Virus record (IMG/VR): IMGVR_UViG_3300021559_000016
Span: 1-45,483 of that record
Origin: a virus
DNA: 45,483 bases
Strand: one strand, 5' to 3'
The translations under genes and the position numbers were made by a program. The notes below the pieces were generated by a model, which made no database searches, was not told the origin of the DNA, and was given only the letters and a program-made list of their open reading frames with translations. Every line of letters starts with the position of its first letter. The stretch's first letter is position 1. Below are positions 4,465 through 25,475 of the stretch, piece after piece.

Positions 4465-4685
4465 AGTTCATCATCGCAGGCAACTATAACCAAGCGAGCA
4501 GCTGGGCTGCGGAGCATCAGCTCCTTCCGCATACATGGAAGTATGTAGATAGCCCAGAAACTCTTTATGGTTCCCAGCGGGGCAGCCAGGTGCTCATCGT
4601 CGGTACATGGAGTGAGCACAACCAAATATCCCGTATCTTGGAAGTCATGATGGAGCGCGGCATAGCATGGAAGCACGCTAAATGA
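4461..4685 (+). CDS. conserved hypothetical protein upstream of DNA polymerase
   Basis: A 74-residue protein. GTG at 4461 is preferred over the in-frame GTG at 4455 because it overlaps the previous stop exactly (GTGA). The N-terminus KFIIAGNYNQA, the DSPETLYG segment and the VLIVGTW strand suggest a small Rossmann-like alpha-beta fold. Similar unnamed proteins occur in other phages. It is coupled by ATGA to the DNA polymerase gene. Confidence 0.6.
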   Translation: MKFIIAGNYNQASSWAAEHQLLPHTWKYVDSPETLYGSQRGSQVLIVGTWSEHNQISRILEVMMERGIAWKHAK

Positions 4686-6652
4686 AATTGATTGTTGGAG
4701 ACTTCGAAACGCGCTTCGGCACAGGCTACTCCCTGCGCGATAAGGGCATGACCCACCAAAAGTACATCATGGACGAGCGCTTCAAGGCGCATGGCTGTGG
4801 GCTGAAGATCGACGGCGCCCCCGCACGCTGGGTACCGGGCAAACATCTGGAAGCGGTGTTTGCCAAGATCGACTGGAACGACGTGTGCTTCATCGGCCAC
4901 AACTTAGGCTTTGACGCCTCGATCCTCGCATGGCGTTACGGAATCTACCCGAAGATGTACATCGACACGCTGGCGCTGGCACGCGCGCAGATCGGCAGCA
5001 ACGCCATCAAGCACGGCCTCGACGCGCTGGGGGAACTGCTACTGGGATCGGGTAAGCCTGAAGGCTTGAGTGCGACGTACAACCTCGTGGATCTGCCGCC
5101 GCATATTGAGGAGCAGCTGGGGCGTTACTGCGTTGATGACGTGAACAAGACTTTCAATCTGTTCAAGCTACTCGTCAAGGGCATAACCCCGACCGAGCTG
5201 AAGGCGATGGACTGGTGCACGCGCGTCTACCTCACGCCGAAGTTCATGCTGGATCAGGAAGTGCTGTCAGATTACTTGGAGGAGTTGGCGGTAAAGAAGG
5301 CTGAAGCCTTGGCCAGTGTGGGTATGGCGGATCGTTCGGCGTTGAACAGCGCGGAGATGTTTGCCGAGGCGTTACGCGCATGCGGCGTCGAGCCGCCCAC
5401 CAAGATGGGCAAGCCGTCCAAGAAGACTGGTGAGTCGAAGATCGGCTACGCGTTCGCCAAGACCGACCAAGCGCTGAAGGATCTGCTGGACCATTCCAAC
5501 CCGGCGGTGCAAGCGCTGGTCGCTGCGCGGCTGGAGATCAAATCTACCAACGAAGAGAACAAGGCACAGGCGTATTACGAGTCAGCGCAGCTTGGCGGCG
5601 CGTGGCCGGTGTCGATCAAGTATGCCGGAGCGATGAATACGCAGCGGTTTAGCGGGGATAAGCATGGCGGGGGTAACCCGCAAAATCTAGGACGCGGCTC
5701 GCGCGTGCGCGACGCCATCTGCGCGCCCGAAGGGTACAAGATCATGGCTTCCGACTTGAGCCAGATCGAAGCGCGTATCAGTTTGCAGCTTGGGGCTTAC
5801 CACTACTTGTGGAATCGCAGCATCAATGATCCTGAGCGCTGCCCTGAGATGGACGCGCTGGACAAGCTACGTAACAACGAGGACATCTATTGCTGGTTCG
5901 GCACCATGGTCTACGGCCGCACGATCACCAAGGCGGACGTGATGGAGCGTCGGCTGTCCAAGACCGCTGTGCTGGGTCTGTGCTTCGGCATGGGCTATAA
6001 GCGATTCTTCGAGACATGCCGTGAGCAGGGCCTGACCATCACGATCGAATTCGCCAAGATGATCGTTCGCTTGTACCGCAAGACGTTCCCGAACATTGTC
6101 AAAGCGTGGAAGTCCTCACTGCAGCAGCTGAGCTATCTCATGCAGGGGCTGAAGATTCCAGCGTTCCGTTTCCGCATCGATGCCACTGGCCCGGCGAATG
6201 ATGCCAACGCTTTCAATATCCTGACGCCAGAGCTTGACCCTATCTTCGGGCAGCCGGCGCTGCGCATGCCGAACGGCCAGTACCTCAAGTACCCGATGCT
6301 AACGTGCGAAACTAAAGGCACTAAGACCGAATGGAGCTACTGGAATAAGGGCAATAAGACGTACATGCACGCGCCCAAGAGCTTTGAAAATGCTGTGCAA
6401 AGTTTGGCCGGCGAACTCTGCCGCGAGATGCTGGTAGAGCTACAGGCGATCTTCCGCGCCGAAGACCCTGGCATGGGCATCGAGCTTCAGGTGCACGACG
6501 AACTGGTGGCACTTATCATCGACGATCCCGCATGGCGGGCGTGGGCTCGCGATCAATTCAACCGCGTGATGCAGTCGTCTCCCTGGTGGATGCCTGAGCT
6601 GCCCGTGGCCTGCGAAACCAAAGAGGGGTATCGGTATGGCGAATGTCATTGA
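4682..6652 (+). CDS. family A DNA polymerase with 3'-5' exonuclease
   Basis: A 656-residue replicative DNA polymerase. The N-terminal DEDDy proofreading exonuclease shows Exo I (D7-F-E9), Exo II (GHN with D78) and Exo III (Y149-x3-D153). The polymerase part has motif A (SDLSQIEAR, D358), motif B (RRLSK with R423 and K427, followed by FGMGY) and motif C (VHDE, H605-D606). All catalytic residues are present. It lacks a 5'-3' exonuclease domain and is slightly shorter than the T7 enzyme. It copies the phage genome, probably with the helicase-primase and ssDNA-binding protein encoded downstream. The ATG at 4682 overlaps the previous stop. Confidence 0.97.
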   Translation: MKLIVGDFETRFGTGYSLRDKGMTHQKYIMDERFKAHGCGLKIDGAPARWVPGKHLEAVFAKIDWNDVCFIGHNLGFDASILAWRYGIYPKMYIDTLALARAQIGSNAIKHGLDALGELLLGSGKPEGLSATYNLVDLPPHIEEQLGRYCVDDVNKTFNLFKLLVKGITPTELKAMDWCTRVYLTPKFMLDQEVLSDYLEELAVKKAEALASVGMADRSALNSAEMFAEALRACGVEPPTKMGKPSKKTGESKIGYAFAKTDQALKDLLDHSNPAVQALVAARLEIKSTNEENKAQAYYESAQLGGAWPVSIKYAGAMNTQRFSGDKHGGGNPQNLGRGSRVRDAICAPEGYKIMASDLSQIEARISLQLGAYHYLWNRSINDPERCPEMDALDKLRNNEDIYCWFGTMVYGRTITKADVMERRLSKTAVLGLCFGMGYKRFFETCREQGLTITIEFAKMIVRLYRKTFPNIVKAWKSSLQQLSYLMQGLKIPAFRFRIDATGPANDANAFNILTPELDPIFGQPALRMPNGQYLKYPMLTCETKGTKTEWSYWNKGNKTYMHAPKSFENAVQSLAGELCREMLVELQAIFRAEDPGMGIELQVHDELVALIIDDPAWRAWARDQFNRVMQSSPWWMPELPVACETKEGYRYGECH

Positions 6653-7473: not shown

Positions 7474-7679
7474 CTGCATTGGGCGACAAAATGCTGAATG
7501 CCGCGGTTAAAGCGGACCTGCAAGAAGATCATCCGTTAGTAGTTGCAGCGTTAAAATTCAACGATGCCGCTGAGGGCTTTTACGGAACGCCGCAGACTGT
7601 CGATGTCAAGACGTTCATGGGCTGCTGGGCGCGAGCGCGCCGTTTATGGTCGGAGTATTCCAAGGAGCCGCTGCTTTGA
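7470..7679 (+). CDS. small hypothetical protein
   Basis: A 69-residue protein, ATGA-coupled to the gene before. It looks helical at the N-terminus, with a Cys-Trp and Arg-rich C-terminal helix (CWARARRLW). No family recognised. Its stop lies in a TTGA overlap with the nuclease gene. Confidence 0.6.
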   Translation: MTALGDKMLNAAVKADLQEDHPLVVAALKFNDAAEGFYGTPQTVDVKTFMGCWARARRLWSEYSKEPLL

Positions 7680-8419
7680 AAGCCCCTCAAGTCATCCCCG
7701 CCAGCTACAGCTCGATCAGTGCCTACGAGACCTGCCCCAAGCAGTTCTATCATCTGCGCATCGCCAAGGACGTGAAACAGGAGGAGAGCAAAGAGATGGC
7801 GTGGGGTAACCTCGTGCACAAGGCGTTGGAGAACAACATCAAATACCGGCACCCCTTGCCGGAGAACATGGCGATGTACCAGTGGGGGCTGGACGTGGTA
7901 GCAAAACGACAGCCAGACACGGCGCTGTATGCGGAGTTGGATGCCGCAATCACGGAGGGTTTCGAAGCAACAGGATTCTGGGATAGCAACTGCTGGGTCC
8001 GTGGTAAAATCGACGTACTGGCGCTGAACGAGGCGCAGACCGTGGCCATGAACGGCGACTGGAAAACAGGCAAGACCAAACCCAACAGTCAGCAGCTCAC
8101 ATTGTCGACGCTGCTGTGCTTCCACAGTTACCCAGCACTAGAGAAAGTACGCACCGTTTTCTTCTGGCTACCAGAGTCCGATCCTCGCAAGCGCACCACG
8201 CAGAAGCTATTTATCCGCCGCGACGATGGCGCACTGCAGACCACCGACGAGAAAGGTAAACAGACGTGGCTGAGCTTCGAGGAAGCCTGGGAGCCCTTCA
8301 TCGACACGATTGACCAGATGAAGTGGAGCTTGCAGCACGACTCCTGGCCAGCCAAACCTTCGGGCCTGTGCAAGGCATGGTGCCCGGTCCTGAGTTGCGC
8401 GCACAATGGGAAACGATGA
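7676..8419 (+). CDS. Cas4/RecB-like PD-(D/E)XK iron-sulfur nuclease
   Basis: A 247-residue nuclease of the RecB/Cas4/AddB superfamily. It shows the GxxxH box (G44, H48), the GKID strand with D113, the DWK motif (D128, K130) and a QL-type helix. Cys20 plus the C-terminal trio C232, C236 and C241 match the four ligands of the 4Fe-4S cluster in Cas4 and AddB. Such enzymes resect DNA ends, and in phages act in recombination or replication. I chose the TTG at 7676: it overlaps the previous stop and has AAGGAG about nine bases upstream. An ATG at 7646 would add ten residues. There is no CRISPR locus nearby, so a Cas role is not implied. Confidence 0.88.
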   Translation: MKAPQVIPASYSSISAYETCPKQFYHLRIAKDVKQEESKEMAWGNLVHKALENNIKYRHPLPENMAMYQWGLDVVAKRQPDTALYAELDAAITEGFEATGFWDSNCWVRGKIDVLALNEAQTVAMNGDWKTGKTKPNSQQLTLSTLLCFHSYPALEKVRTVFFWLPESDPRKRTTQKLFIRRDDGALQTTDEKGKQTWLSFEEAWEPFIDTIDQMKWSLQHDSWPAKPSGLCKAWCPVLSCAHNGKR

Positions 8420-10560: not shown

Positions 10561-10892
10561 GCGCCAGCACCCCCGAAGGCAAAGTCAAAGCCAAGATCGA
10601 CGCGATCCTGAAACCCTACAAGGCTAGCGGTCGGCTGTGGTACACCAAGACAGCGGGCAGCATGTTCGGCACTAACGGCGTGCCAGATTATGTGTGCAAC
10701 TTGCGCGATGAATCAGCCTTCATCGATCCAGGCAGTTACTTTTTCACCATCGAATCCAAGGCCGGCAAGGGCAAGCCCTCCGATCTGCAGACCGCGCAAA
10801 TGGAAGCGATCGAGAAGTCCGGCGGTATCTGTCTGGTCATCAACGAAAAGAACTTAGACGTTCTTGAGGCGTGGCTCCGTGCTCATTCGTAA
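10557..10892 (+). CDS. VRR-NUC domain nuclease
   Basis: A 111-residue single-domain nuclease of the VRR-NUC branch of the PD-(D/E)XK superfamily. The active site reads GVPDYV (D44), FFTIESKAG (E66, K68) and a later Gln (Q78). Lone VRR-NUC proteins of phages act on branched DNA such as Holliday junctions, and this one lies directly before a SNF2-like helicase, a pairing common in phage genomes. The two genes overlap, so they are likely made together. The length is typical. Confidence 0.9.
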   Translation: MSASTPEGKVKAKIDAILKPYKASGRLWYTKTAGSMFGTNGVPDYVCNLRDESAFIDPGSYFFTIESKAGKGKPSDLQTAQMEAIEKSGGICLVINEKNLDVLEAWLRAHS

Positions 10893-12429
10893 CGGCGCGA
10901 TGCTGATGCAGGTTAACGACGCCGCGCCCATCACCGGCGTGATCCCGCGCAGCAAAGCCATGCGCTTTAAGGGCAAACTGCTGGTGGCGGTCAAGCATGC
11001 GCTGGATGAGGTCTGTGTGCTGCGGAACATGGGGCTGGATGCGCCGAGCCCGATGCTCTATGACGGCTTTACGTTCGCCGGTCGCTACACACCGATGAGC
11101 CACCAGGTGGAGACAGCGGAGTTCCTGACGCTGAACCGCCGGGCGTTTGTACTGTCTGAGATGGGGGTCGGCAAGTCCTCAGCAGCGCTATGGGCACTGG
11201 ACTATCTGCGCCAGCGCGGCTTCGTGGGACGGACACTTATCATCTGCCCACTCAGCGTCACTAAGGTCTGGGTCGATGAAGGCTTTACCACCACACCGCA
11301 TCTCTCTATCGGGGTGATGACGGGTACGCGCGCTAAGCGGCTAAACGTGTTGGGCAGCGGCGACCCGATCGTGCTGATCAACTTCGACGGCCTCACCGGG
11401 CTCAAAGATGCACTGAAAGACAAGTTCGATCTCATCATCGTGGACGAAGCCAGCACCTATCGCAACGCCTCGACGCAACGCTACAAGGCCCTCAAAGGGC
11501 TGATCAAGGCAGAGACGCGCTTGTGGATGCTGACGGGCACACCAACACCAAATGCCCCCACCGATGCATGGGCCATGGTGCGACTGGTGTCGCCACAGAA
11601 CGTGCCAGGGAGTTTCAAACTCTTCCAGATGACGGTGATGCGCCCGGCTGGTCCGTATAAGTGGGTTCCGAAGGATGGGCACAAGGAAATCGTGCATGCT
11701 GCGATGCAGCCAGCAGTGCGCTTCAAGAAAGCTGACTGCCTGGACTTGCCGGCGGTGACACACATGAACCGCTACTGCGAGCTGAGTGCGGAGCAGCACA
11801 AGATGTTCGAGACCATGCGCAAATCCATGCGTCACGAGGACAACGACGTGACAGTGACCGCGGCCAACGCCGCCGTGCGCGTGCTGAAGCTACAGCAGAT
11901 CTGCTGCGGGATCGTGAAGGACGACATGGGCGATCCGGTGGTGCTGGACGACAAGCCGCGCATCGAGCTGCTGATGGAGCTATTGGAGGAGATCGAGGGT
12001 AAGGTGATCGTCTTCGCCCCCTTCATCTTCACGATGCAGCGCTTGCTGCAGGTCATCGGCGAAAAGTACAGCGTCGCCCTGGTCAACGGCTCGGTGAGCG
12101 CTCACGACCGATCCGCCATTTTCCACGCTTTCCAGAACGACCCCAGTGGTCCACGTGTACTGCTGGCGCACCCGGCAACCACCGCCCATGGGCTGACGCT
12201 TACGGCAGCGAGCAACATCATTTGGTACGCGCCGATCTACTCCATCGAGCAGTATGAACAGGCCAACGCGCGTATCGACCGCAAGGGCCAGACTGAACCA
12301 TGCACCGTAACGCACATCGGTGCGCATCCGTTCGAGTGGGCCATCTACAAGGTGTTGCAGACCAAAGCCTCGCTGCAGAGCGAGTTGCTGTCGCTTTATC
12401 ACAAACTGCTTGACGGGCACGTTTCTTAA
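10879..12429 (+). CDS. SNF2-like superfamily 2 helicase
   Basis: A 516-residue SF2 ATPase. RecA-like lobe 1 has the P-loop SEMGVGKS (residues 93-100), the DEAS box (D189) and motif III LTGTPTPN. Lobe 2 ends with motifs V and VI (GLTLTAA, then EQANARIDRKGQ) containing the arginine finger. These enzymes remodel or translocate along double-stranded DNA; with the neighbouring VRR-NUC nuclease it likely handles recombination or replication intermediates. I chose the GTG at 10879, with GAGG nine bases upstream. A TTG at 10864 and an ATG at 10900 are alternatives. Confidence 0.92.
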   Translation: MLIRNGAMLMQVNDAAPITGVIPRSKAMRFKGKLLVAVKHALDEVCVLRNMGLDAPSPMLYDGFTFAGRYTPMSHQVETAEFLTLNRRAFVLSEMGVGKSSAALWALDYLRQRGFVGRTLIICPLSVTKVWVDEGFTTTPHLSIGVMTGTRAKRLNVLGSGDPIVLINFDGLTGLKDALKDKFDLIIVDEASTYRNASTQRYKALKGLIKAETRLWMLTGTPTPNAPTDAWAMVRLVSPQNVPGSFKLFQMTVMRPAGPYKWVPKDGHKEIVHAAMQPAVRFKKADCLDLPAVTHMNRYCELSAEQHKMFETMRKSMRHEDNDVTVTAANAAVRVLKLQQICCGIVKDDMGDPVVLDDKPRIELLMELLEEIEGKVIVFAPFIFTMQRLLQVIGEKYSVALVNGSVSAHDRSAIFHAFQNDPSGPRVLLAHPATTAHGLTLTAASNIIWYAPIYSIEQYEQANARIDRKGQTEPCTVTHIGAHPFEWAIYKVLQTKASLQSELLSLYHKLLDGHVS

Positions 12430-12889: not shown

Positions 12890-13954
12890 GTGGCCAAAGA
12901 ATTGTCATTGTTCGACCAAGCACAGACCCAGCTACCCGCGCATCTGCAGGGCTACGACTCGGGCCTGAGTAAAACGCTCATGGAAGCGGTGGGGCAGAGC
13001 CTCAACCGCATCGGCACCAAGGGCTCGCGTTTCCGTCAGGTCGTACGCGGCGTCGAGGAGGGCGTGTGGCAGGAGAACTACCTGGACGTCATCATCGTTG
13101 GCGCCGTGGAGACTGTCTCACGCCGCTACTACCCGAAGACTTACCAGCAGGGCGGAGACAACGCACCGCCGAGTTGCTACAGCGTCGACGGTATCGTGCC
13201 GGCAGCGGACGTCAAGCTCAAGCAGGCAGACAAGTGCCAGCAGTGCCCGCAGAACATTAAGGGCAGCAAGACCGGTGAGGGCGGTGTCAAAGCGAAAGCA
13301 TGCTCCTATTTCCGGCGCTTGGTAGTCATGCTAGCGGGCGACCCCGAGGGCATCATCTATCGCCTGGACGTAACTGCGATGGGCCTGTTCGGTGAGTCGC
13401 ACGAGAAAGACCAGCGTTACGCTCTGAACGACTACAGCAAGGCCCTGGCCAACCGCCACATGGACGCCGGTGCGGTGGTCACCCGGCTTAGCTTCGATAC
13501 CGACCAGTCCGTCCCCAAGCTGCTTTTCCAGCCGCTACGCTACATCAGCGAAGGCGACGTCGATGCCATCAATGCGATCCACGCCACCGGCGAACTGCCG
13601 CAGTACCTCGACGTGTCCATGAAGACCGTGGACATCAGTGGCGAAGTGTCTGAAGAAGACGCTGCTCCGCCGCCAGCGGCGGCCCCGAAAGCACAGGCAC
13701 CCAAACCGAAGGCAGCTCCGAAACCTGCACCGGTCGTGGAGCAGGAAGAGGAGATTGAGGAAGAGACTCCGCCTGTCGTGCAGAAGCCCGCGCCCAAGCC
13801 CGTTGCTAAGCCGGCTCCACAGAAGCCCGCGCCCGTCGTCGCGCAGCGTGCGGCACCTTCCCAGCCTGCAGCTGCATCAAAGCCAGCGCCGGTGGTGCAC
13901 GAGGTCGGCAATGATTCGGAACTAGACGATCTGCTTGCTGGCTTGGATCTGTGA
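12890..13954 (+). CDS. probable ssDNA-binding protein
   Basis: A 354-residue protein with GTG start after GAGGAAACACCC. Residues 1-240 form a conserved globular domain with KGSRFRQVV near the start and a Cys cluster (CQQCPQN, later a C before SYFRR) that likely binds zinc. Residues 250-335 are a Pro/Ala/Lys-rich, flexible linker with an acidic island. The last residues (DSELDDLLAGLDL) form the acidic-hydrophobic tip typical of ssDNA-binding proteins, where it recruits partners. Phage genes of this kind sit beside polymerase and helicase. The role is inferred from tail, zinc motif and context. Confidence 0.65.
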   Translation: MAKELSLFDQAQTQLPAHLQGYDSGLSKTLMEAVGQSLNRIGTKGSRFRQVVRGVEEGVWQENYLDVIIVGAVETVSRRYYPKTYQQGGDNAPPSCYSVDGIVPAADVKLKQADKCQQCPQNIKGSKTGEGGVKAKACSYFRRLVVMLAGDPEGIIYRLDVTAMGLFGESHEKDQRYALNDYSKALANRHMDAGAVVTRLSFDTDQSVPKLLFQPLRYISEGDVDAINAIHATGELPQYLDVSMKTVDISGEVSEEDAAPPPAAAPKAQAPKPKAAPKPAPVVEQEEEIEEETPPVVQKPAPKPVAKPAPQKPAPVVAQRAAPSQPAAASKPAPVVHEVGNDSELDDLLAGLDL

Positions 13955-14478
13955 TGAAATTAACCCAATATCACCGCGATGCGATCGCGGAATCAGTCCT
14001 CAATGACATGCCAAAACTGCAAGATCGCAATGCAGCAGCTTTGGAGCTAGCAACGAAATACGTCACCAGCAAACTCCCTTCGGAGCTTCGGGCTATCGTG
14101 ACTAAATATCCCGAGTGGACCAACAAGGGCTACTACAGTGCCCCGCATGGGCTCAGTTCCATGTACTTGCCTTGCTCGTCAAGCGACCATCGTGACCTGA
14201 AGAAGGAGCCGAAGTTATGGGCACAGCTAACTGCGTTGGCTACGGCGCAACGAAGCATGCAAGAGGAACGCAGCGCGATCAGGATCAAGGTGCGGGCAGC
14301 GCTTAATTCAGTTCGCACGTTGGCCCAGGCCAAAGAAACTTTTCCTGAGTTCGCTAAATATTTTCCCGAAGAAACCGACCCCGGTAAAACGTCGCGCAAT
14401 CTTCCTGCCGTTATCGGCCTCGTAGACGATTTGAAGAGAGCTGGCTGGCCCGTGAAGACAAAGAAGAAAACGTCATGA
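13954..14478 (+). CDS. hypothetical protein, possibly Nmad5-like
   Basis: A 174-residue protein. The ATG at 13954 overlaps the preceding stop by one base; the GTG at 13951 is an alternative. It begins MKLTQYHRDAIAESVLND, the type of opening I associate with nucleotide-modification-associated (Nmad5-like) phage proteins, and ends with a DLKRAGWPV segment. A central helix-rich region is likely coiled. The family link is tentative, no catalytic residues are certain, and function should be treated as unknown. Confidence 0.6.
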   Translation: MKLTQYHRDAIAESVLNDMPKLQDRNAAALELATKYVTSKLPSELRAIVTKYPEWTNKGYYSAPHGLSSMYLPCSSSDHRDLKKEPKLWAQLTALATAQRSMQEERSAIRIKVRAALNSVRTLAQAKETFPEFAKYFPEETDPGKTSRNLPAVIGLVDDLKRAGWPVKTKKKTS

Positions 14479-14755: not shown

Positions 14756-16726
14756 GTGGATCACACCCAGCGGCAATTCTTTCACGCGGTGCTCGCGCAC
14801 AGCGGTCTTCCCTGTCTCGGCACGAAACGTCCGGGGTCAGCGGGAGGCGTGCGTCACCAGGTCACCGACGATGTGGATGCCTTCTGCGATTTGCTGGAGA
14901 CCACGAACTTCGCGCATCTGGACGGCTATTTCTGTATCTCTACGCTCGTACAAGCGAAGGTAGTAGAGCGCGACGCTATCAAGACACGGACGCAGAGCAA
15001 CGCGTCGCACACCCGCTGCTTCGTGCTGGACATCGACATCCACGCGCCCGGCGACAAGGACCACAACCCGGCCCGGTACTACGAGACGCAGGACGAAGGC
15101 CGCGCCGGTCTGGCTGCCATGGTCGACGCGTTCCAGATGCCCCAGCCGATCGTGGTCAACTCAGGCTACGGGCTGCATGTCTACTGGCCAATGGTGGAGG
15201 GTGTACCTAGCGCTGAGTGGAAGTCGGTGGCGGATCGGTTCAAGCGAGCGCTGCAGATACCTTTCCCCCAGCTCGTGGGCGATGGCAGCCGCGTCGCGGA
15301 TAGCGCGGGTCTACTGCGCATACCAGGCACGTTCAACCTCAAGCACGGCAAGAGCGTGCCGGTAACCATTGAGCAATGGTCGGACGAAGTGCTGGACTTT
15401 GGCGAGTTCGCTGAACAGATGCGTCGACAAGGGGGCGCGGCGCTCGGGCCGTCCAGTCCAAAGATGGCCTCACTGGTGCCCAGCATCACGCTGGAGCTGG
15501 CCCGCGAAGAGATGGAGCCCGTAGCGCTCACCGCGCTGGTCAAGAACTGCAACTGGGTCGCCCGCTATCTGAAGGGCATGGACAGCGCTGACGAGCCCGC
15601 GTGGTACGCGATGCTGGGGCTGGCACCGTTCGTGACTCACACGGCGCAAGGCAAGACGATCAATGGCGCACAGGTCGCTCATCTCTTCTCGCGCAAGCAC
15701 CCGGCATATACCCCATTCGATACTGAGCGCAAATACCAGCAAGCCTCCGTCGGCCAGACCGGCCCCACTACTTGCATCCGCTTTCAAGGCATCGACCGTA
15801 CCGGCTGCGAGGGCTGCCCCTTCCTGGGCGACGTCAAGTCACCGGCTGCGGCGGCGCGCTTATCACGCCCCATCACCGAGCCCAAAGCCGTCGAGACCTC
15901 GGTACGTGATGAAGCCGGTGTGGTCACGCAAGCGACGGTACATATCCCCGTGCCGCCAGCACCGTACTTCCGCGGGGAAGATGGTGGCGTGTTTGTCCGC
16001 AGCAAAAAGCAGGAAGAGGATGGCAGCTGGACCAGCTTCATTCAGAAGGTCTATGACTACGACATCTATCCGACCCGGCGCTACCGCACCGAGAACATTG
16101 AAACCGAGTCGCTGGAGATCCAGCTGCACTTGCCGCGCGATGGTATGCGCACCTTCAAGATGCCAACCGAGCTGCTGGCCGAGCAGAAGAAACTCAGTAC
16201 CTATCTGACCGGCCACGGCGTTGTCGCCGAGCATGGCAGCGGCGTCCTCATTGCCAAATACATGGTGACCTATGTGCGAGACATGCAGATGAACCGAGCC
16301 GCTGAAATCGAATTCTCCCGCTTCGGATGGCGCGACATTCTCTCCGACCATCCGAAGTTCATCGTGGGCAACGGCTATATCAGCAAGGACGCCCCACTCA
16401 ACGCGGGAACTTTCGCGCCCTACTTGCGGCAGGCAGCGACCTCCGTGGCCTGCGCCGGTGACCTGGAGGAGTGGAAGAAGGCATTCAACGTCTACCAGGG
16501 GATGACCGGTAGCGAGCCGTTCCAGATGTGCATTCTCCTGGGCTTCGCCGCCCCCCTGCTGGCGCTCACCGAGTACCGTGGCGTACTGTTCAACATGGTT
16601 GGCCATGGTGGCTCGGGCAAGTCCACGGCGCTGAAGATCATGGCCTCGGTATGGGGGCAGCCCAACGAGGCGCGCGTCTCCATCAAGGATACCGAGATCG
16701 CCGTGGAGAACATGATGGGTACCTGA
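14756..16726 (+). CDS. AEP primase-DUF927 helicase, N-terminal part (frameshifted)
   Basis: A 656-residue product with GTG start. Residues 85-200 match archaeo-eukaryotic-type primases: LDIDIH (D92, D94), SGYGLHVYW (136-144) and LLRIPGTFNLKHG. A Cys cluster (C, then CEGC) near residue 340 may bind zinc. A DUF927 domain follows, ending in the P-loop GHGGSGKST (616-624). The frame then stops at a TGA (16724-16726), just before the expected Walker B. The C-terminal part continues in another frame. If the break is real, this product could still make primers but would lack a complete ATPase. Confidence 0.85.
   Translation: MDHTQRQFFHAVLAHSGLPCLGTKRPGSAGGVRHQVTDDVDAFCDLLETTNFAHLDGYFCISTLVQAKVVERDAIKTRTQSNASHTRCFVLDIDIHAPGDKDHNPARYYETQDEGRAGLAAMVDAFQMPQPIVVNSGYGLHVYWPMVEGVPSAEWKSVADRFKRALQIPFPQLVGDGSRVADSAGLLRIPGTFNLKHGKSVPVTIEQWSDEVLDFGEFAEQMRRQGGAALGPSSPKMASLVPSITLELAREEMEPVALTALVKNCNWVARYLKGMDSADEPAWYAMLGLAPFVTHTAQGKTINGAQVAHLFSRKHPAYTPFDTERKYQQASVGQTGPTTCIRFQGIDRTGCEGCPFLGDVKSPAAAARLSRPITEPKAVETSVRDEAGVVTQATVHIPVPPAPYFRGEDGGVFVRSKKQEEDGSWTSFIQKVYDYDIYPTRRYRTENIETESLEIQLHLPRDGMRTFKMPTELLAEQKKLSTYLTGHGVVAEHGSGVLIAKYMVTYVRDMQMNRAAEIEFSRFGWRDILSDHPKFIVGNGYISKDAPLNAGTFAPYLRQAATSVACAGDLEEWKKAFNVYQGMTGSEPFQMCILLGFAAPLLALTEYRGVLFNMVGHGGSGKSTALKIMASVWGQPNEARVSIKDTEIAVENMMGT
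16720..16726 (+). other. one-base frameshift splitting the primase-helicase
   Basis: Reading GGT ACC TGA here gives a stop. Re-reading the last C of ACC (16723) yields CTG AAC TGC ATC, which continues the protein as MGT-LNCIPVAFDE, the expected path into Walker B. The simplest explanation is loss of one C from a CCC run, as a true mutation or a sequencing/assembly error. No canonical X-XXY-YYZ slippery sequence or clear downstream pseudoknot was seen, so programmed frameshifting is less likely. Confidence 0.75.
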
Positions 16727-17682
16727 ACTGCATCCCCGTCGCCTTCGATGAGTTGACCAAGTGGGACCCGGACAAGCTGGGCAAGTTCGTGCTCAACCTC
16801 ACCGGCGGCCGGGGCAAGATGCGCGCCGGACGTAATGGCGCCAACATCACCAACAACACCGAGTGGGACACCATCGTTGCCTGCTCGTCCAACACCAGCG
16901 TCTATACGCGCCTGGCTGAAGCGCGCACCGGCTACACCGCCGAGGCCATGCGTGTTTACGAGGTTAGCGTCGAGAAGGGTGATCCCCAGCACAAGCCACG
17001 CATGGACGCTGCCTCTGCCATCCTGCTGAAGAACTACGGCTTAGCCGGGCGCAAGTACATGGAGTGGTTGATTAAGAATCTCCTACCCGTACAGCAGGCG
17101 GTAGAGAAGGCCATGGCCCAGCTGGACGCTGCAGGACGTGCTACTGATGAGCGCTTCTGGGTGGCTCTGCTAGCGGCGCTGCGGGTCAGTGGGAAGATCA
17201 CCAAGCAGATGGGCCTGCACGACTATGATATTGATCACCTGATCGCATGGGCCACGGGGCAGACTGTCGAGGCACGCGTCGAGATCCAAGCCTCCCACTC
17301 CTCTCCGCTCGCGGTGCTGGCCGACTACTTCAACGATACGCTGGACGGCACGCTATACTTCCGCGAAGGCGCTGTCAACCTCGATGGGCCGTCGACCTTC
17401 GTGCGAAGTGTAAAGAACCGCATTGAGGCCACCGGCGGCGTAATCCACACGGCCTACATTTCCGTCGCATCCATCCGCGCCTATTGCGCACCCAAGAACA
17501 TCGACATGGCCTGGCTCAAGCGTGGCTTGATGGATTCCGGCGTGATGGCTAGCGGCGAGATTACTAAACGACTGGCGACCGGGACGTCGCTGCCCAATAC
17601 CCCCACACGAGCCTGGACGATCGATATGGGGCATGCGCTACTGAACGACGTGGCGGTATTGCCGCCGGAGGAGGGAGCGTGA
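16723..17682 (+). CDS. AEP primase-DUF927 helicase, C-terminal part
   Basis: A 319-residue continuation of the primase-helicase in the -1 frame. It begins with the Walker B strand (VAFDE at 16738-16752) and continues through DUF927-type conserved stretches such as GRGKMRAGRNG and the sensor-like VACSSN segment. A C-terminal helical region (17280-17682) probably binds DNA or partners. There is no convincing start codon or ribosome site at the junction, which argues for one ancestral gene of about 975 codons. It ends in a GTGA overlap with the next gene. Confidence 0.8.
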   Translation: MNCIPVAFDELTKWDPDKLGKFVLNLTGGRGKMRAGRNGANITNNTEWDTIVACSSNTSVYTRLAEARTGYTAEAMRVYEVSVEKGDPQHKPRMDAASAILLKNYGLAGRKYMEWLIKNLLPVQQAVEKAMAQLDAAGRATDERFWVALLAALRVSGKITKQMGLHDYDIDHLIAWATGQTVEARVEIQASHSSPLAVLADYFNDTLDGTLYFREGAVNLDGPSTFVRSVKNRIEATGGVIHTAYISVASIRAYCAPKNIDMAWLKRGLMDSGVMASGEITKRLATGTSLPNTPTRAWTIDMGHALLNDVAVLPPEEGA

Positions 17683-18389: not shown

Positions 18390-18682
18390 AAGCAGAATCA
18401 AGTCCTGGCTACGACGACCTTTGGCTTTACTTTGGCCTATCTCGGGCGAGTTGGCTAACAATGCCGCGGGCCTTCATGCACGAGATGCCTGACGAATGGC
18501 AAGCGAAGATGGCCGCGCTACTTTGGGAGTGGCAGAAAACATGGAAGTGGCCCGATGAATTAGGCACTCCCTATGTTTCGCAACGAGTAAACGGGCGGTT
18601 CACTTCGTTCCCCGAATATGTATTGAACTACCGGCACCCAAAAATAAAATACATCGACTCGTGCCGAGTACCTACCGAATAG
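18386..18682 (+). CDS. conserved phage protein, last gene of the early operon
   Basis: A 98-residue protein. DLWLYFGLSRASWLTMPR followed by MHEMPDEWQAKMA is a signature I recognise from small phage and prophage proteins, which have no assigned function and are often found near morphogenesis or DnaB-type genes. Its 3' end overlaps the 3' end of the giant late gene on the opposite strand by 11 bases. Confidence 0.7.
   Translation: MKAESSPGYDDLWLYFGLSRASWLTMPRAFMHEMPDEWQAKMAALLWEWQKTWKWPDELGTPYVSQRVNGRFTSFPEYVLNYRHPKIKYIDSCRVPTE
18639..18669 (-). terminator. candidate terminator of the late operon
   Basis: Immediately after the stop of the giant gene (minus strand), ACTCG-GCA-CGAGT forms a 5-bp stem with a 3-base loop (18657-18669). 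It is followed five bases later by a T-rich tract (complement of 18639-18651). The stem is short, so this is a weak candidate. Confidence 0.35.
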
Positions 18683-21600
18683 TTTTCTCCGCCGCATCCG
18701 TCGCCGTACGCAACGCCGAGTCGAGCTGCTTGCGTACGTACTGTTTTCTCTCCGGCCCATCCTTGGAAGCGACTAGTGCCTTGAGCCCGGCCTGGTAGGT
18801 CTTTTTCGCCGCCTCGATCTGGTTCAAGGCCACGAGCTTCTGCTGGGCATCGGGGTTGGTGGATAGCCACTGCTGGCCAGCGGCAGCATACTCGGGTGAA
18901 CCCTTGGGGCCAGCCTGCAGCCGCACATGGTTGAGCTGCTGCAGCGAAGGGGTCAGCTCGTCGATCACCTTGTACATGTGGCTGGAGTCGTAATACGGCG
19001 CGCCCTGGTAGGTCAGCCGCAGCTCGGCGCTGAGGGCATTGTTCGGAAGCCCTTGCGCTTCGCGGCTACTCTGCCCCAGTGTCGCACGCATGAGGTCAGT
19101 AGGCGCCGTACCCATGTAGCTTTCGGACATGAACTTCAGCGTCTCGGGGAAGAAGTCCGCGCCGGTGTGCTCGTTCAGCGACTTGGCCAGATCCTTCCAC
19201 ATCTCCGGCGTATTGGTCTTGCCCTGGTCGGAGGCGAACTCCTGAGTGTTGGGATGCGTCGTAGTGATCGACTGACCGAAGTCGTTGACGTTGTGTGCGA
19301 TGTCCGCCGCTGGCTGCAGCACGGTCGGGGTAACGGCCCCCATGCCGATGCCCAATAGGTGTGCAAGTAACCCCGAGTGCTCCGGCGTCGCCAAGGGCTC
19401 CATCAGCGGGATGTTCCGCCCCAGCACTTTGCCGTAGGCGGCTGCCGCGTCAGAAGCACTGATATCACCCGCCATGACCGCCGCCATCAGCGTACCGGGA
19501 CCGGTGAGTATCTGATGCGCGCCTAAGCCCGCAGGGTAGACGTACGGTGTGCCGGTGTTGTACCCAATGAAGCCTTTGGTCACCAGGTCCTCGGGGTTAC
19601 CCTCGGCGATACTGGCCATGTTGTAGTGGCCGCTCTCGTCCTTGCCCAGCATCTCGCGATCGAAGTAGTACCGCAGGAAGGCGTAGCCGGACATGGACCC
19701 GACCAGCATACCCACCTTGCCCCAGTCCACGGAGGTATGCACCGTGCGTCCCAAGATATTCACCGGCCGCAGCCCTTCGGGATGGCGGAACGCGCGTATA
19801 AGGTTGTCGGTCGCTGTTGCGCCGATGCGGAAGAAGCTGTGGTAGCCGTTGAACGCCCGCCCCGCCGTACCCCGCTGCTGCAGGTCGAAAGCTTGCTTGG
19901 TCAGGGCTGCGGCATCGGCATCACTCATGCCCTTCTTGACCAGTGCGCGGAAGAGGCCCACGCTGGGGATGTTCTCTGCGACGTCCGCCAGACCACGCTC
20001 ATAGCGCAGCACCGCTCGGCCGCCTTTGACCAGCGGGTTAGACTGTTCACGCCGGGCTGCCGAGACAAGGGCGTTCTTGCTCTCGTGCATGGTCAGCTCT
20101 TGCGTGAAGGCGGTGGAGGCACCGGCCTCGTTCATGCGCTTGACCCAGCCAGCCATGCTGTCGGGGTTGGCCTTGGCCAGAGCGCGCACGCCCTCGGTAT
20201 CATGTTGGATCGTCTTCGCCAGCCACGCACCCGTACCCTCGTGAAAGACGCCGCTGAAGGTATTGGCATATGCCTCGACCATGTGTCCGGCGAAGTCCAG
20301 CGGGGTGCGCGAGTTCTGCAGCGCGTACATGATCGGCTTCTCCAGCATCAGACGTGGCAGTAGCGTAGCCGCTGTCCAGACCGGGTTGGCGATGGTGCGT
20401 GCTTGGGAGAGAAAATTGGTGGCGTGAGTGATGTAGCGTGTCGGCTCGCCCAGGCCCACGGCGCGTGTCAGAGGATGCGTCAAGGTCTCGACACCTGAAG
20501 CGATAGCATCGACCCACGGAATGTCCCGCAGATCCCAGTTCGTGCCGATCGCCCGCATACCGTTATACACGTCGCTGGTCTCGGGGAAGTTCATGACGTA
20601 GTGCATGCGCCCTTCGTGGTGCACGACGTTACGCCCACCGGTGGGTAGCTGGTCGACATGCTTGCCGGTGCGCACGTTGTCGTAGCCCTCACGCGGCGTA
20701 CCCGTCCACGACTCGACCGTGGTATTCATGATCTCGTGCTTGGCGACAGTCGGTGCCATCTCGGGACGGGCTTTGGCCAGCGCCTGCAGAGCCTTCTTGT
20801 TGGCCGAGTGAGCTTCCAGCACACTGTTGGTGAACTCGTGCCGGGCGACGTTACGCGCCGCGGCCTCCATCTGCTGGAAAGGCGAGAGCAGTCCATTCGC
20901 TGCCATCGTCGCACGGCCTTCTGCCGTGTTGAGCTGCTTGGCGTTGGCCGAGGCCATAAGCTTGGCACCTCGATCAGATAGCTCGGTGACCAGGGGGTCG
21001 ATCTCATTCTTGCCGTCGGAGGCGTAGCCGGTTAGCGTGCTCCACGTATTGTTGTCGAACGCCTGGGCGAACGGGTCGTCTGCTGCCACGTCGCCGCTCT
21101 GCAGCCGGCGCTGATAGATATTCTTGTTCAACTCGCCGTACAGTGGGTCAAACCGCTTGGAGGCTTCGGCTGTGCCGTTCTTGGCGTATTCCGTCAGCTT
21201 GCGCACGCGACGGTCGTACTGAGTCTCGCCCGTGTCGGAGTGGGCGATGCCCTTGGTGGAGCGAGCCCACTCGGCGAATGGCTGGCTCGCATGCTGTTTG
21301 ACCAGCGCGGTCAGCTGCGCCTCACCCTCCTTGCTCGGTAGCTCGCGGCGCGTGATCTTGCCGAGGATTTTCTGGCGGATAGCCTCCTGACCGTTCTCCA
21401 GCGCCACGTTGCGACGATACTCACTTGGCCACTGATGCGTCATCTCCGATCGCACGATGCGGTATTCGCCCAACTTCTGCATGGCCTTGAGCGGGTCCAT
21501 GTCCACCTCGTGACTGAACTGCACGAAGGCGTTGACGATGGGCTTCATGAACTTGTCGGCGTCCTGCTGTACTAGCTCACCGGCCGTGCCGATCATGCGC

Positions 21601-24600
21601 CGCGCCTGCAGGGTCAGGTTGTGCTTGACGTCGGTAGCCAGACCGAAATTGCGCAGTAACCCCTCACGCAGGTCGTCGAACGAGGCATGGCTAGCCACCA
21701 GTACCTCACGAGCTTTACGCAGCACGGTGCGCGTGCGCTGCACGCCATCGGACTCGGGGCCATCCAACACGAAGTTGTGCAGCCGCTCTGCCTCCATGAC
21801 AGGAGAGAACCCCTCAGGCTGGCCGGCATACCGCTCCTTAGTCAACTCGTAGTCACGTAAGAAGCGCTGTGTACCGGACTCCTGCGTACCCATGATGTGC
21901 TGCAAGCCGTCGATGATGGCCTGTTTGTTAGGGTTCGCACCGAACAGCGAACGGATCTGGTCGATGAATCCCTTGAGCCACTGGTGCGCCTGCGCGAGCA
22001 GGCCTTTGCCCTTGAACCCATGCTCCAGCATATCCGTGGCGTGCACCGCCCAGTATTCGCTCGGATTGACCAGCGAGTAGAGTTCGCCGATGCGCTTGGA
22101 GGCTACAGCCTTGGTGTCACGCAAGTGCAGTAGTTCTTCTTTGGCGCCTTGGGCATATAGGGCTCTTTCGCTGGCAGTCTTGGCCTTGAGCCCGTTCTGC
22201 AGGTACTCGAACATGCCCTGTTCCGACGGGGCAGCACCGGCAGCCAGACGACTGATCTCCGCCTCTCTCGCCTTGAGGATGGCATCGCGAATCGGGGGCG
22301 GCATCAGCGACTCGGCCGCATGCATCAGTTCGTGCACCGCCGTGGAGGATGTCATGTCCTTGCGATCGACTAGCTCCAGCACGCGGGACACTGCACCAAA
22401 CCGGCCGCCGTAGTTCACCCCTTCCGTCAGCGGGGTCTTGGACACGTCGTTAATGGTTCGGATTAGCGCCGGGTTCTTGCCCAGCACCCATGCAAGAAAG
22501 TCGGTCGCCTTCTGGTGCGGCTCGCTATCAGGGAACAGCTTCCTCAGCTTGGCAATGGTCTCGGCCGCGCGCGCTCGATCACTCTTGAGCCCTGTGGGCA
22601 TTTCGTCTGCCGCGCGCGCGATAGCTTCCGCCGAACGGCCTAGCTCTGTCGTGGGAGCTTCGCCGCGGGAGACGTCCAGCAGATCTTCCTTCCCCGCATC
22701 GACGGCTTTGGTTGCCTCGGTATCGCGCCCTGCCGCTTCGCGCGGGGTCTCACGCCCGGCTTGGCGCAGCGTTTTAGCCTCTTCGAGCGTGATGGTGTCG
22801 TCGCTACGCATCTCCTTGATGCGAGCGTGCAGGTCTTCCGGCATGCCATTCTGGGCACGCTCCACCAAAGTGCGCACATCCGCCAGATCGGCAGGCGTAA
22901 CTTTGCCCTCAAGCGTCTGGCCTACAACATCAGCGTTTGCGCTTGAGGCGGTTGGCTCCAGCGGGTTTGCTTCCACTGGAGCCGGGGCTTTTTTTGCCGC
23001 GACACCTTCTTTGGAAAGCGGCGAGACTTTCCCCTCCAGTGGCTTGGTATCCCCGAGGTCCACGTTGGGCTGACTGTCCAGGTCCGAAGGGATGTCTGCG
23101 TTGGGATGCCGGCCAGCGATACCCGCCTTCTTGATTGCCGCCTTCAGGGCGTCCTGATATTTGATCGGGTCGACGTCGTACTTCTGCCGGATGAAGTGGT
23201 TCTCCGCCGCCGTGGCCGCGTCGTGCGCATCGTGGTAGACCGCGCCCATCTCCTTCATCAGGGGCCACTCGACCCGCTCGTGAAGGGCAACGGCTTCATG
23301 GACGTTGATGCGCCGGCCATCCACGTTGACGTACTTCGGCATGCGCTGGTCGATGTAGATCGTATTACCGTCCTGACTCACGCCGCCAGCCAGGTGTACA
23401 TCCTTGGTCGTAACCACGGGGGTCTTGCTATTGAGCGGTTCGCCCGGCGAGCGCGGCTGACCTAGATCGTTGACCTTATTGACGCCTGGCGCTTCCACTT
23501 TCGCCGTGGCAGCCTGTACGTCGCCTGGTACTGTCTCACTCTTGGTCGCGCTCGGTATCGAAGCCACCTCCCTCTGGTAGGCGTGGTATTTCTCTTCCAA
23601 GGTCATCTTGGCGAGTTTCGCCGCCGGATAGGCGCTACGCACGCCCTTGCGAACCTTAGTCAGGGCCTCATCCATTGCCGTATGCAGCTGCCTACTCTGC
23701 AGATCGCCGGACTGTTCTGCCGTCTGGTCAAGCGGGTCTTTCGGCGTGTTGTCCACCGGGCTACCAGCCTGCTCACCACCCATGGCTTCGCCTGCCAGGG
23801 TCTGCGCCAGCTCAGGGTTAAGCGGCGTGCCTGATTCTTGCCCCGGCACTTCGGCTACAGGGGCCGCTGACTCGCCCTGCGGTGCCGCCTGCGGTGCTTC
23901 CCCGGGTACGCTGGGAGCTTGCCCTTGGACATCGGGCTGTCCCGTCTCGGCGATGGCCGGAGCGGGCGTAGCAGTAGCCGCCTGTCGCCCATGGGCTAGC
24001 AGCTCGGGCAGACCTTCTTGCGGGGCCACCGTGTGTAGCCGGGTAGCCACTGCCTCGATCGCATCGTGTTGCTGTACCGGGGACATTTTGGACCAGTCAG
24101 CACCAGATTCACTAGCTGCGTTCTGCGCGACTGCGGTCGCCTGCTGCAGCAATTCCTGTGGAGACTTCGCAGCCTTGGCTGCTTGGATGTAGTCACGATC
24201 GGCCCCAGCTGCCGCTGCCGCTTCTTTCACTTGGGCATGCTGAGCCTCAGGGATGCCAGCGCCGGTAGAGACAGTGGGCAGCTGCACATCGCTAGGGGCA
24301 TTGATCGGATTACCTGCGGCATCAGTCAGGGGCTTACCTGCCACATCGACCGCTTGGACTGGTGGATTTGCGCCGGCAGGGGTAGCGGCGGTTGGAGCAC
24401 CAGATTCGGCCGCCGCCCGCGCGGCTACTCGTGCATTTACTTGATGGCCCAGCTCACCTAGCGCCGTTCCCAGCACGGTCTGCAATCCTACGTCCTTCAG
24501 GGATAGCGGATTGTTCTTCGCGTCGACCACGTTGCTGCCGATATTCTGGCCCGCGCCGATAGCAGCGTTTGCAAGACCGGACTTGAGCAGGCGCTTGCCC

Positions 24601-25475
24601 ACTGTGCCTGCGACTCCACCCCCCACACCAAGACCTGCGAGATTCGCTGCCGTATTGATACCCAGGATGCCTTCTTGTTGGGCAACTGACCCACCCGCGT
24701 CACGTTCATTACCCACCGCGCTCATGGTTGGCAGCACGCCGAGCGAGGCGACCGCGCCAGGCAATTGACCTACGAAGGCAGCAGTGGGAGATCGAGAAGC
24801 GGCTTCTTCCTGTAGCTTCTTGCCCTGCGCCGTCATAGCGTTAACGGTAGGGTCTGTCGCCCGGAAGTAGGCATCGGCCATGTTGCTCTGCGGCGTGCCG
24901 GGGATGAGATTATTGTTGATCGCATCGCCCAGTACAGCGACGCCACCGCCGACATAGCGCGCTGCTTCGCCTAGACCTTGCTCTGTCGCGCCCAGCGCGG
25001 ATTTGCCAAGATCTGCCAAGCTCTCCCCGAAACCGCCTTTGCTCGCCGTCTCTGCGGCTTGCTTGTTATACTGCGCGGCGAAGGGCGCGAAGTTGGCGTC
25101 GTCGGCTGCTTTCCACGAAGCCTCGATGCCTTTGCTGTAGGCTCCCTTTCGCGTATACGCCTCACGCATGGCCGGTAGGTGCTGCGTAAACGAGGTGTCC
25201 TTGAGCTGCTGTAGCTGCTCCGGTGTCAGATGCTTTCCGCCATTGGCCTTCTCGGCAGCAGCTACAGCATCGGGGAATGCAGGAAGTGCAGGCTCGGCGG
25301 TAGAAGCCACTGGCGGCATGGGACGCAGCGCAGTAGGAACTGTCGCCGGAGCAGCACTTGCCCCTTCGCCTGGAAATTGCCCGGTGCGTAGGTAGCGCTC
25401 ATAGAGACTTTCCCCACCCGGCGGGGCTGCAGTACCGGGGTCCATGACTGAGCCAGTGTTGGGCGTATCCATCAT
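18672..25475 (-). CDS. giant polyvalent virion/ejection-type protein with zincin domain
   Basis: A 2267-residue protein in an ATGA overlap with the gene before. Residues 1-700 are Ala/Pro/Gln-rich, with a Gly-rich hydrophobic stretch near 230-330. A domain around 690-800 contains IYIDQRMPKYV and HEAVALHERVE (H726). At 1048-1052 lies HELMH, followed by NPSEYWAVH (E1140); together they fit a gluzincin-type zinc metallopeptidase. The C-terminal half is mainly helical and ends in a charged segment like the large polyvalent-protein modules of podovirus ejection proteins. I infer that it is packaged in the head and sent into the host. The size excludes an ordinary tape measure reading given the other genes. 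Confidence 0.8.
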   Translation of the reverse strand: MMDTPNTGSVMDPGTAAPPGGESLYERYLRTGQFPGEGASAAPATVPTALRPMPPVASTAEPALPAFPDAVAAAEKANGGKHLTPEQLQQLKDTSFTQHLPAMREAYTRKGAYSKGIEASWKAADDANFAPFAAQYNKQAAETASKGGFGESLADLGKSALGATEQGLGEAARYVGGGVAVLGDAINNNLIPGTPQSNMADAYFRATDPTVNAMTAQGKKLQEEAASRSPTAAFVGQLPGAVASLGVLPTMSAVGNERDAGGSVAQQEGILGINTAANLAGLGVGGGVAGTVGKRLLKSGLANAAIGAGQNIGSNVVDAKNNPLSLKDVGLQTVLGTALGELGHQVNARVAARAAAESGAPTAATPAGANPPVQAVDVAGKPLTDAAGNPINAPSDVQLPTVSTGAGIPEAQHAQVKEAAAAAGADRDYIQAAKAAKSPQELLQQATAVAQNAASESGADWSKMSPVQQHDAIEAVATRLHTVAPQEGLPELLAHGRQAATATPAPAIAETGQPDVQGQAPSVPGEAPQAAPQGESAAPVAEVPGQESGTPLNPELAQTLAGEAMGGEQAGSPVDNTPKDPLDQTAEQSGDLQSRQLHTAMDEALTKVRKGVRSAYPAAKLAKMTLEEKYHAYQREVASIPSATKSETVPGDVQAATAKVEAPGVNKVNDLGQPRSPGEPLNSKTPVVTTKDVHLAGGVSQDGNTIYIDQRMPKYVNVDGRRINVHEAVALHERVEWPLMKEMGAVYHDAHDAATAAENHFIRQKYDVDPIKYQDALKAAIKKAGIAGRHPNADIPSDLDSQPNVDLGDTKPLEGKVSPLSKEGVAAKKAPAPVEANPLEPTASSANADVVGQTLEGKVTPADLADVRTLVERAQNGMPEDLHARIKEMRSDDTITLEEAKTLRQAGRETPREAAGRDTEATKAVDAGKEDLLDVSRGEAPTTELGRSAEAIARAADEMPTGLKSDRARAAETIAKLRKLFPDSEPHQKATDFLAWVLGKNPALIRTINDVSKTPLTEGVNYGGRFGAVSRVLELVDRKDMTSSTAVHELMHAAESLMPPPIRDAILKAREAEISRLAAGAAPSEQGMFEYLQNGLKAKTASERALYAQGAKEELLHLRDTKAVASKRIGELYSLVNPSEYWAVHATDMLEHGFKGKGLLAQAHQWLKGFIDQIRSLFGANPNKQAIIDGLQHIMGTQESGTQRFLRDYELTKERYAGQPEGFSPVMEAERLHNFVLDGPESDGVQRTRTVLRKAREVLVASHASFDDLREGLLRNFGLATDVKHNLTLQARRMIGTAGELVQQDADKFMKPIVNAFVQFSHEVDMDPLKAMQKLGEYRIVRSEMTHQWPSEYRRNVALENGQEAIRQKILGKITRRELPSKEGEAQLTALVKQHASQPFAEWARSTKGIAHSDTGETQYDRRVRKLTEYAKNGTAEASKRFDPLYGELNKNIYQRRLQSGDVAADDPFAQAFDNNTWSTLTGYASDGKNEIDPLVTELSDRGAKLMASANAKQLNTAEGRATMAANGLLSPFQQMEAAARNVARHEFTNSVLEAHSANKKALQALAKARPEMAPTVAKHEIMNTTVESWTGTPREGYDNVRTGKHVDQLPTGGRNVVHHEGRMHYVMNFPETSDVYNGMRAIGTNWDLRDIPWVDAIASGVETLTHPLTRAVGLGEPTRYITHATNFLSQARTIANPVWTAATLLPRLMLEKPIMYALQNSRTPLDFAGHMVEAYANTFSGVFHEGTGAWLAKTIQHDTEGVRALAKANPDSMAGWVKRMNEAGASTAFTQELTMHESKNALVSAARREQSNPLVKGGRAVLRYERGLADVAENIPSVGLFRALVKKGMSDADAAALTKQAFDLQQRGTAGRAFNGYHSFFRIGATATDNLIRAFRHPEGLRPVNILGRTVHTSVDWGKVGMLVGSMSGYAFLRYYFDREMLGKDESGHYNMASIAEGNPEDLVTKGFIGYNTGTPYVYPAGLGAHQILTGPGTLMAAVMAGDISASDAAAAYGKVLGRNIPLMEPLATPEHSGLLAHLLGIGMGAVTPTVLQPAADIAHNVNDFGQSITTTHPNTQEFASDQGKTNTPEMWKDLAKSLNEHTGADFFPETLKFMSESYMGTAPTDLMRATLGQSSREAQGLPNNALSAELRLTYQGAPYYDSSHMYKVIDELTPSLQQLNHVRLQAGPKGSPEYAAAGQQWLSTNPDAQQKLVALNQIEAAKKTYQAGLKALVASKDGPERKQYVRKQLDSALRTATDAAEKTIR
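18705..18753 (+). terminator. candidate terminator of the early operon
   Basis: CGTACGCAA (18705-18713) and TTGCGTACG (18730-18738) form a perfect 9-bp stem with a 16-base loop, about 20 bases past the last early gene. TACTGTTTTCTC follows and could serve as the U-tract. The site lies inside the 3' end of the opposing giant gene. The long loop and imperfect T-run keep confidence moderate. Confidence 0.4.

Follow-up and report, generated by a model that had tools for sequence, protein, structure and literature searches.

A single missing base divides the primase-helicase gene of an uncultivated phage record between Walker A and Walker B

The IMG/VR virus record analysed here (the window, 45,483 bases in its whole length) holds a primase-helicase gene which, according to the open reading frame list and the translation, is cut by one missing base between Walker A and Walker B. 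The question raised by this locus is whether the base was lost during the reading of the DNA, was lost by the phage itself, or whether the break belongs to an unusual way of producing the protein. We hold with high confidence that this is an ordinary AEP-primase/DUF927-helicase gene carrying a one-base deletion in the deposited sequence, which would be either a consensus error or a very recent lesion. The parts of the locus are the following:

14756-16726, plus strand: 5' part, AEP-type primase domain and then the DUF927 ATPase to just past Walker A (ORF, Pfam and phrog matches)
16712-16720, plus strand: interval of the one-base deletion, which is best assigned to the G run (DNA comparison with the relatives L002 and L007)
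16720-17682, plus strand: 3' part (-1 frame) with Walker B (VAFDE) and the remaining helicase (ORF, Pfam, phrog, relatives)

The ORF at 14756-16726 (+) carries the primase-part motif strings FVLDIDIH, SGYGLHVYWP and RIPGTFNLK as well as the P-loop GHGGSGKST, and it ends with ...AVENMMGT, where a premature TGA at 16724-16726 closes the primase/Walker A frame. The -1-frame ORF was listed as 16528-17682 and is open for 384 codons; the frame itself is open from 16513 (the preceding stop is at 16510-16512) to 17682, and the two frames overlap by 214 bases (16513-16726). The conserved sequence of the 3' part starts at the Y encoded at 16720, from where the -1 frame reads YLNCIPVAFDELTKWD..., and what precedes it in the listed ORF (16528-16719) is an out-of-frame shadow. 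The Pfam profile DUF927 (PF06048) was matched from position 3 to 235 at the end of the first ORF and from 242 to 278 in the second, and the same was obtained at genome level; one DUF927 domain is split over two ORFs, the window copy being cut between profile positions 235 and 242. Likewise, consecutive stretches of phrog_25314 and phrog_8841 (DNA primase/helicase) were matched in both halves, with a gap of a few positions. The codon-position base composition changes frame between about 16580 and 16880. Since the continuity of the DUF927 and phrog matches and the switch of the composition fall at the same place, the break truly exists in the record and does not result from a chance resemblance. 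Walker A and Walker B do not stand in one open frame in the window copy, which we take as error or lesion. The initial annotation had put the P-loop in the first frame and the VAFDE Walker B strand in the next one, as the ORF translations and the divided DUF927 domain indeed confirm. Its claim of a one-base split between the two motifs also stands on the ORFs, the DUF927 continuity and the composition switch, while the position and the base that it gave do not.

At the break the closest relative, 3300030737_000018, reads ATGATGGGGTATCTC and the window reads ATGATGGGTACCTG. The break-point alignment (AACATGATGGGGTATCTCAACTGC in the relative, AACATGATGGGTACCTGAACTGC in the window) contains a single gap, which lies in the G run: directly after ATGAT the window has GGG at 16717-16719, and the nearest relative GGGG. 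The second relative (L007) reads AACATGCTTGGGTACTTGAAC at this point. Judged by these alignments, the missing base lies within 16712-16720 and is most simply one G of the four-G run. It had been proposed earlier that the frame is restored by re-reading a single C at 16723; the alignment gap falls in the G run instead. A C restored at 16723 was considered and rejected, as it would give MMGTLN with a T, yet the two close relatives have a Y here (MMGYLN and MLGYLN).

The gene encodes an ordinary primase-helicase of a phage, about 970 residues long, in which an AEP-type primase is fused to a DUF927 helicase domain. The DUF927 match scored 80 bits in the first half against the Pfam cut-off of 22.6, with the remainder of the domain in the second half, and the N-terminal region matched phrog_2478, DNA polymerase/primase, with an E value of 3.9e-10 over residues 115-235. 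The AEP motifs DxD, SGxGLHVYW and RIPGTxNLK are present in the N-terminal primase part, and of their residues D94, S132, G133, G135, H137, Y139, W140, L183, R184, T188 and N190 are invariant in the 31 aligned sequences. The DUF927-type ATPase core could be aligned with PDB 5DGK (a staphylococcal mobile-element helicase, 'Active helicase') and PDB 8TCH (a pathogenicity island protein) with both Walker motifs within one chain; the relationship is only distant, and neither structure matches the primase part of the window protein. The C-terminal part weakly matches an NCBIfam model for the SCCmec cassette replicative helicase. The primase-DUF927 domain arrangement resembles that of the AEP primases fused to DUF927 putative helicases of mobile elements; such fused DUF927 domains have been predicted to be mobile-element helicases, and a DUF927 member from a S. 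aureus island has been reported as a helicase (PMC5862659).

In the relatives the frame is intact. The record 3300030737_000018 (L002/L006, 58,749 bp) has the same gene in a collinear neighbourhood and differs from the window by one more base at the break point and by the unbroken frame, which runs for 987 codons from stop to stop and about 969 from a GTG start; the proteins are 82% identical before the break and 89% after it. The record 3300009709_000005 (L007, 60,276 bp) shares the gene and the gene order, its protein being about 60-62% identical, and unlike in the window its frame is uninterrupted. The same was found in a further relative of 28% identity, and distant homologues are annotated as a single CDS in Pseudomonas phage Rollin, a Rhizobium phage and an E. 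coli plasmid. The homologue of the Rhizobium phage (L010:1779-4862, MN988472.1) carries the annotation 'putative integrase protein', apparently a misannotation. The profile scans brought in 80 viral and 46 genome loci; among all examined loci with a match covering both motifs, a stop between Walker A and Walker B was present in 0 of 97, among them the two nearest relatives; these loci had been picked by protein similarity, a selection that may favour intact genes. Only two close relatives were found (89% and 62%). An exact search of the viral contigs with the broken 22-mer, in collections that may lack records very close to the window, gave no record with the same break, the degenerate DNA patterns over Walker B matched just the two relatives already known, and a nucleotide search of phage records gave no match. 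Thus the comparison with related phages, which had been suggested as a check, gave a uniform answer: the break is seen in none of the relatives.

Purifying selection acts on both halves. Compared with the nearest relative, the first half (646 codons) gave dN 0.123, dS 0.968 and dN/dS 0.127, and the second half (319 codons) dN 0.072, dS 0.778 and dN/dS 0.092. The substitutions fell mostly on third positions in both (95/55/268 by codon position in the first half, 32/18/113 in the second). Since the dN/dS is low and the third-position bias is retained in the second half, the downstream frame is not decayed: up to a very recent time this half evolved, in its own frame, as translated protein does.

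It is very unlikely that anything functional stands behind the break. A programmed -1 ribosomal frameshift, or slippage during transcription, at this site would yield a short and a full product, and the overlap of the frames together with the conservation of the downstream one would suit such a process. We nevertheless consider it highly improbable, since no X XXY YYZ heptamer occurs in the whole overlap 16513-16726, as had been noticed earlier, and the folding of the 101 bases of RNA that begin at the site is no better than that of shuffled sequence (z +1.19, pseudoknot-free folding), i.e. no stimulatory downstream structure was detected there. Moreover, just three Gs are left for slippage, the frame of the nearest relatives is intact so that no frameshift is needed, and the break is not conserved at any of the 97 loci. 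More improbable still is that the base is really absent and a non-canonical -1 recoding, with no slippery heptamer, takes place at ATG GGT ACC TGA and makes the primase alone and the primase-helicase in a set ratio. If recoding were true, it would be a new way of setting the primase to helicase ratio; nothing here points to it. The least credible is a split subunit, in which the second ORF, being open for 384 codons, would be translated alone and would join the first product to rebuild the ATPase. Translation from GTG 16528 or ATG 16651, both ahead of Walker B, would extend the product by residues of the out-of-frame shadow; translation from TTG 16753, GTG 16789 or ATG 16819, which follow next and lie at or beyond Walker B, would leave this motif out. 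In addition, no homologous locus is split. The suggestion of an undescribed recoding or split-subunit arrangement thus finds neither a relative with the break, nor a slippery site or structure, nor a usable second start, and the break is almost certainly no new way of making the protein.

There remain the error and the fresh mutation, on which the genome around the gene has some bearing. The neighbourhood contains the following genes:

4682-6652: family A DNA polymerase
7646-8419: PD-(D/E)XK nuclease
10864-12429: SNF2-type helicase

The window and the two relatives have only one DUF927 gene each, and no DnaB-type helicase was found in these three records, which may be incomplete. Since neither a second DUF927 gene nor a DnaB-type helicase was seen, the loss of the primase-helicase would probably be harmful; replication probably depends on this gene, an argument against a natural break that the phage tolerates. 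Two integrase/recombinase families were looked for in the same records and neither was found, therefore prophage decay has no support. Among the about 45 window genes with matches in the two relatives no other frame change was detected, and one lesion in 45 kb is as expected if one consensus error, or one fresh mutation, had occurred.

With the frame break, its place, the intact relatives and the purifying selection on both halves directly observed, we infer that the missing base is most likely an error and not a real mutation. The base was probably dropped in sequencing or assembly, in which case the phage itself would make one intact protein from one frame. Against an error, a run of four Gs is not long, and deep short-read assemblies seldom contain indels of this kind. 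In its favour, homopolymer frameshift errors from sequencing, found only at annotation, have been described in phage DNA polymerase and tail fibre genes from short-read assemblies (PMC10438801). A real, very recent deletion that would inactivate the helicase in the sampled phage population, leaving it helicase-defective or complemented by another phage or by the host, is a less likely form of the same reading, doubtful to our mind but deserving some weight: the downstream half is still conserved, as a recent loss predicts, and the sequence itself offers nothing to exclude it. Against it, an inactivated replication gene should not dominate the population consensus, the record shows no substitute helicase of the two kinds mentioned, and there is no sign of a decaying prophage from the two integrase families tried. 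The weights given to the error, to the lesion and to a functional arrangement are our judgement and were not computed. The initial annotation had itself named a sequence error or a recent mutation, and this is supported by the intact relatives, by the purifying selection on both halves and by the fact that no second break was seen in the window. The case is also a warning, as one missing base in an uncultivated phage record makes two false genes from one replication gene; comparison with one relative resolves such a false pair.

Some further observations were made on the neighbouring genes. In 3300030737_000018 the family A DNA polymerase (L011:10643-13585, minus strand), the relative of window 4682-6652, has an in-frame insert of about 310 residues, which starts with CLLPSCEVLTPTGWKRF and ends with VAVTFN before CQN. 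In the window polymerase the site is empty (GGGNPQNLGRG), and no insert appears in the alignment of the second relative. The insert looks like an intein; it gave no match with the intein models. In 3300009709_000005 the PD-(D/E)XK nuclease (L020:8345-10015, minus strand), the relative of window 7646-8419, contains an in-frame interruption of about 945 bases, which follows the position of residue 140 of the window protein. For this insert there is a weak match to an RNA polymerase A'' model, within what may be the intein part of the model, and the insert is probably a second intein.

Upstream of the primase-helicase, the window encodes at 13951-14478 a domain of the nucleotide modification associated family Nmad5 (PF18757, E 6e-17), and this domain may point to modified DNA or counter-defence. 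The two relatives have nothing that matches it at this position. On the other side, 18672-25475 on the minus strand is a single gene of 2267 codons with no NCBIfam match, which is conserved in the two relatives with about 56% and 42% identity.
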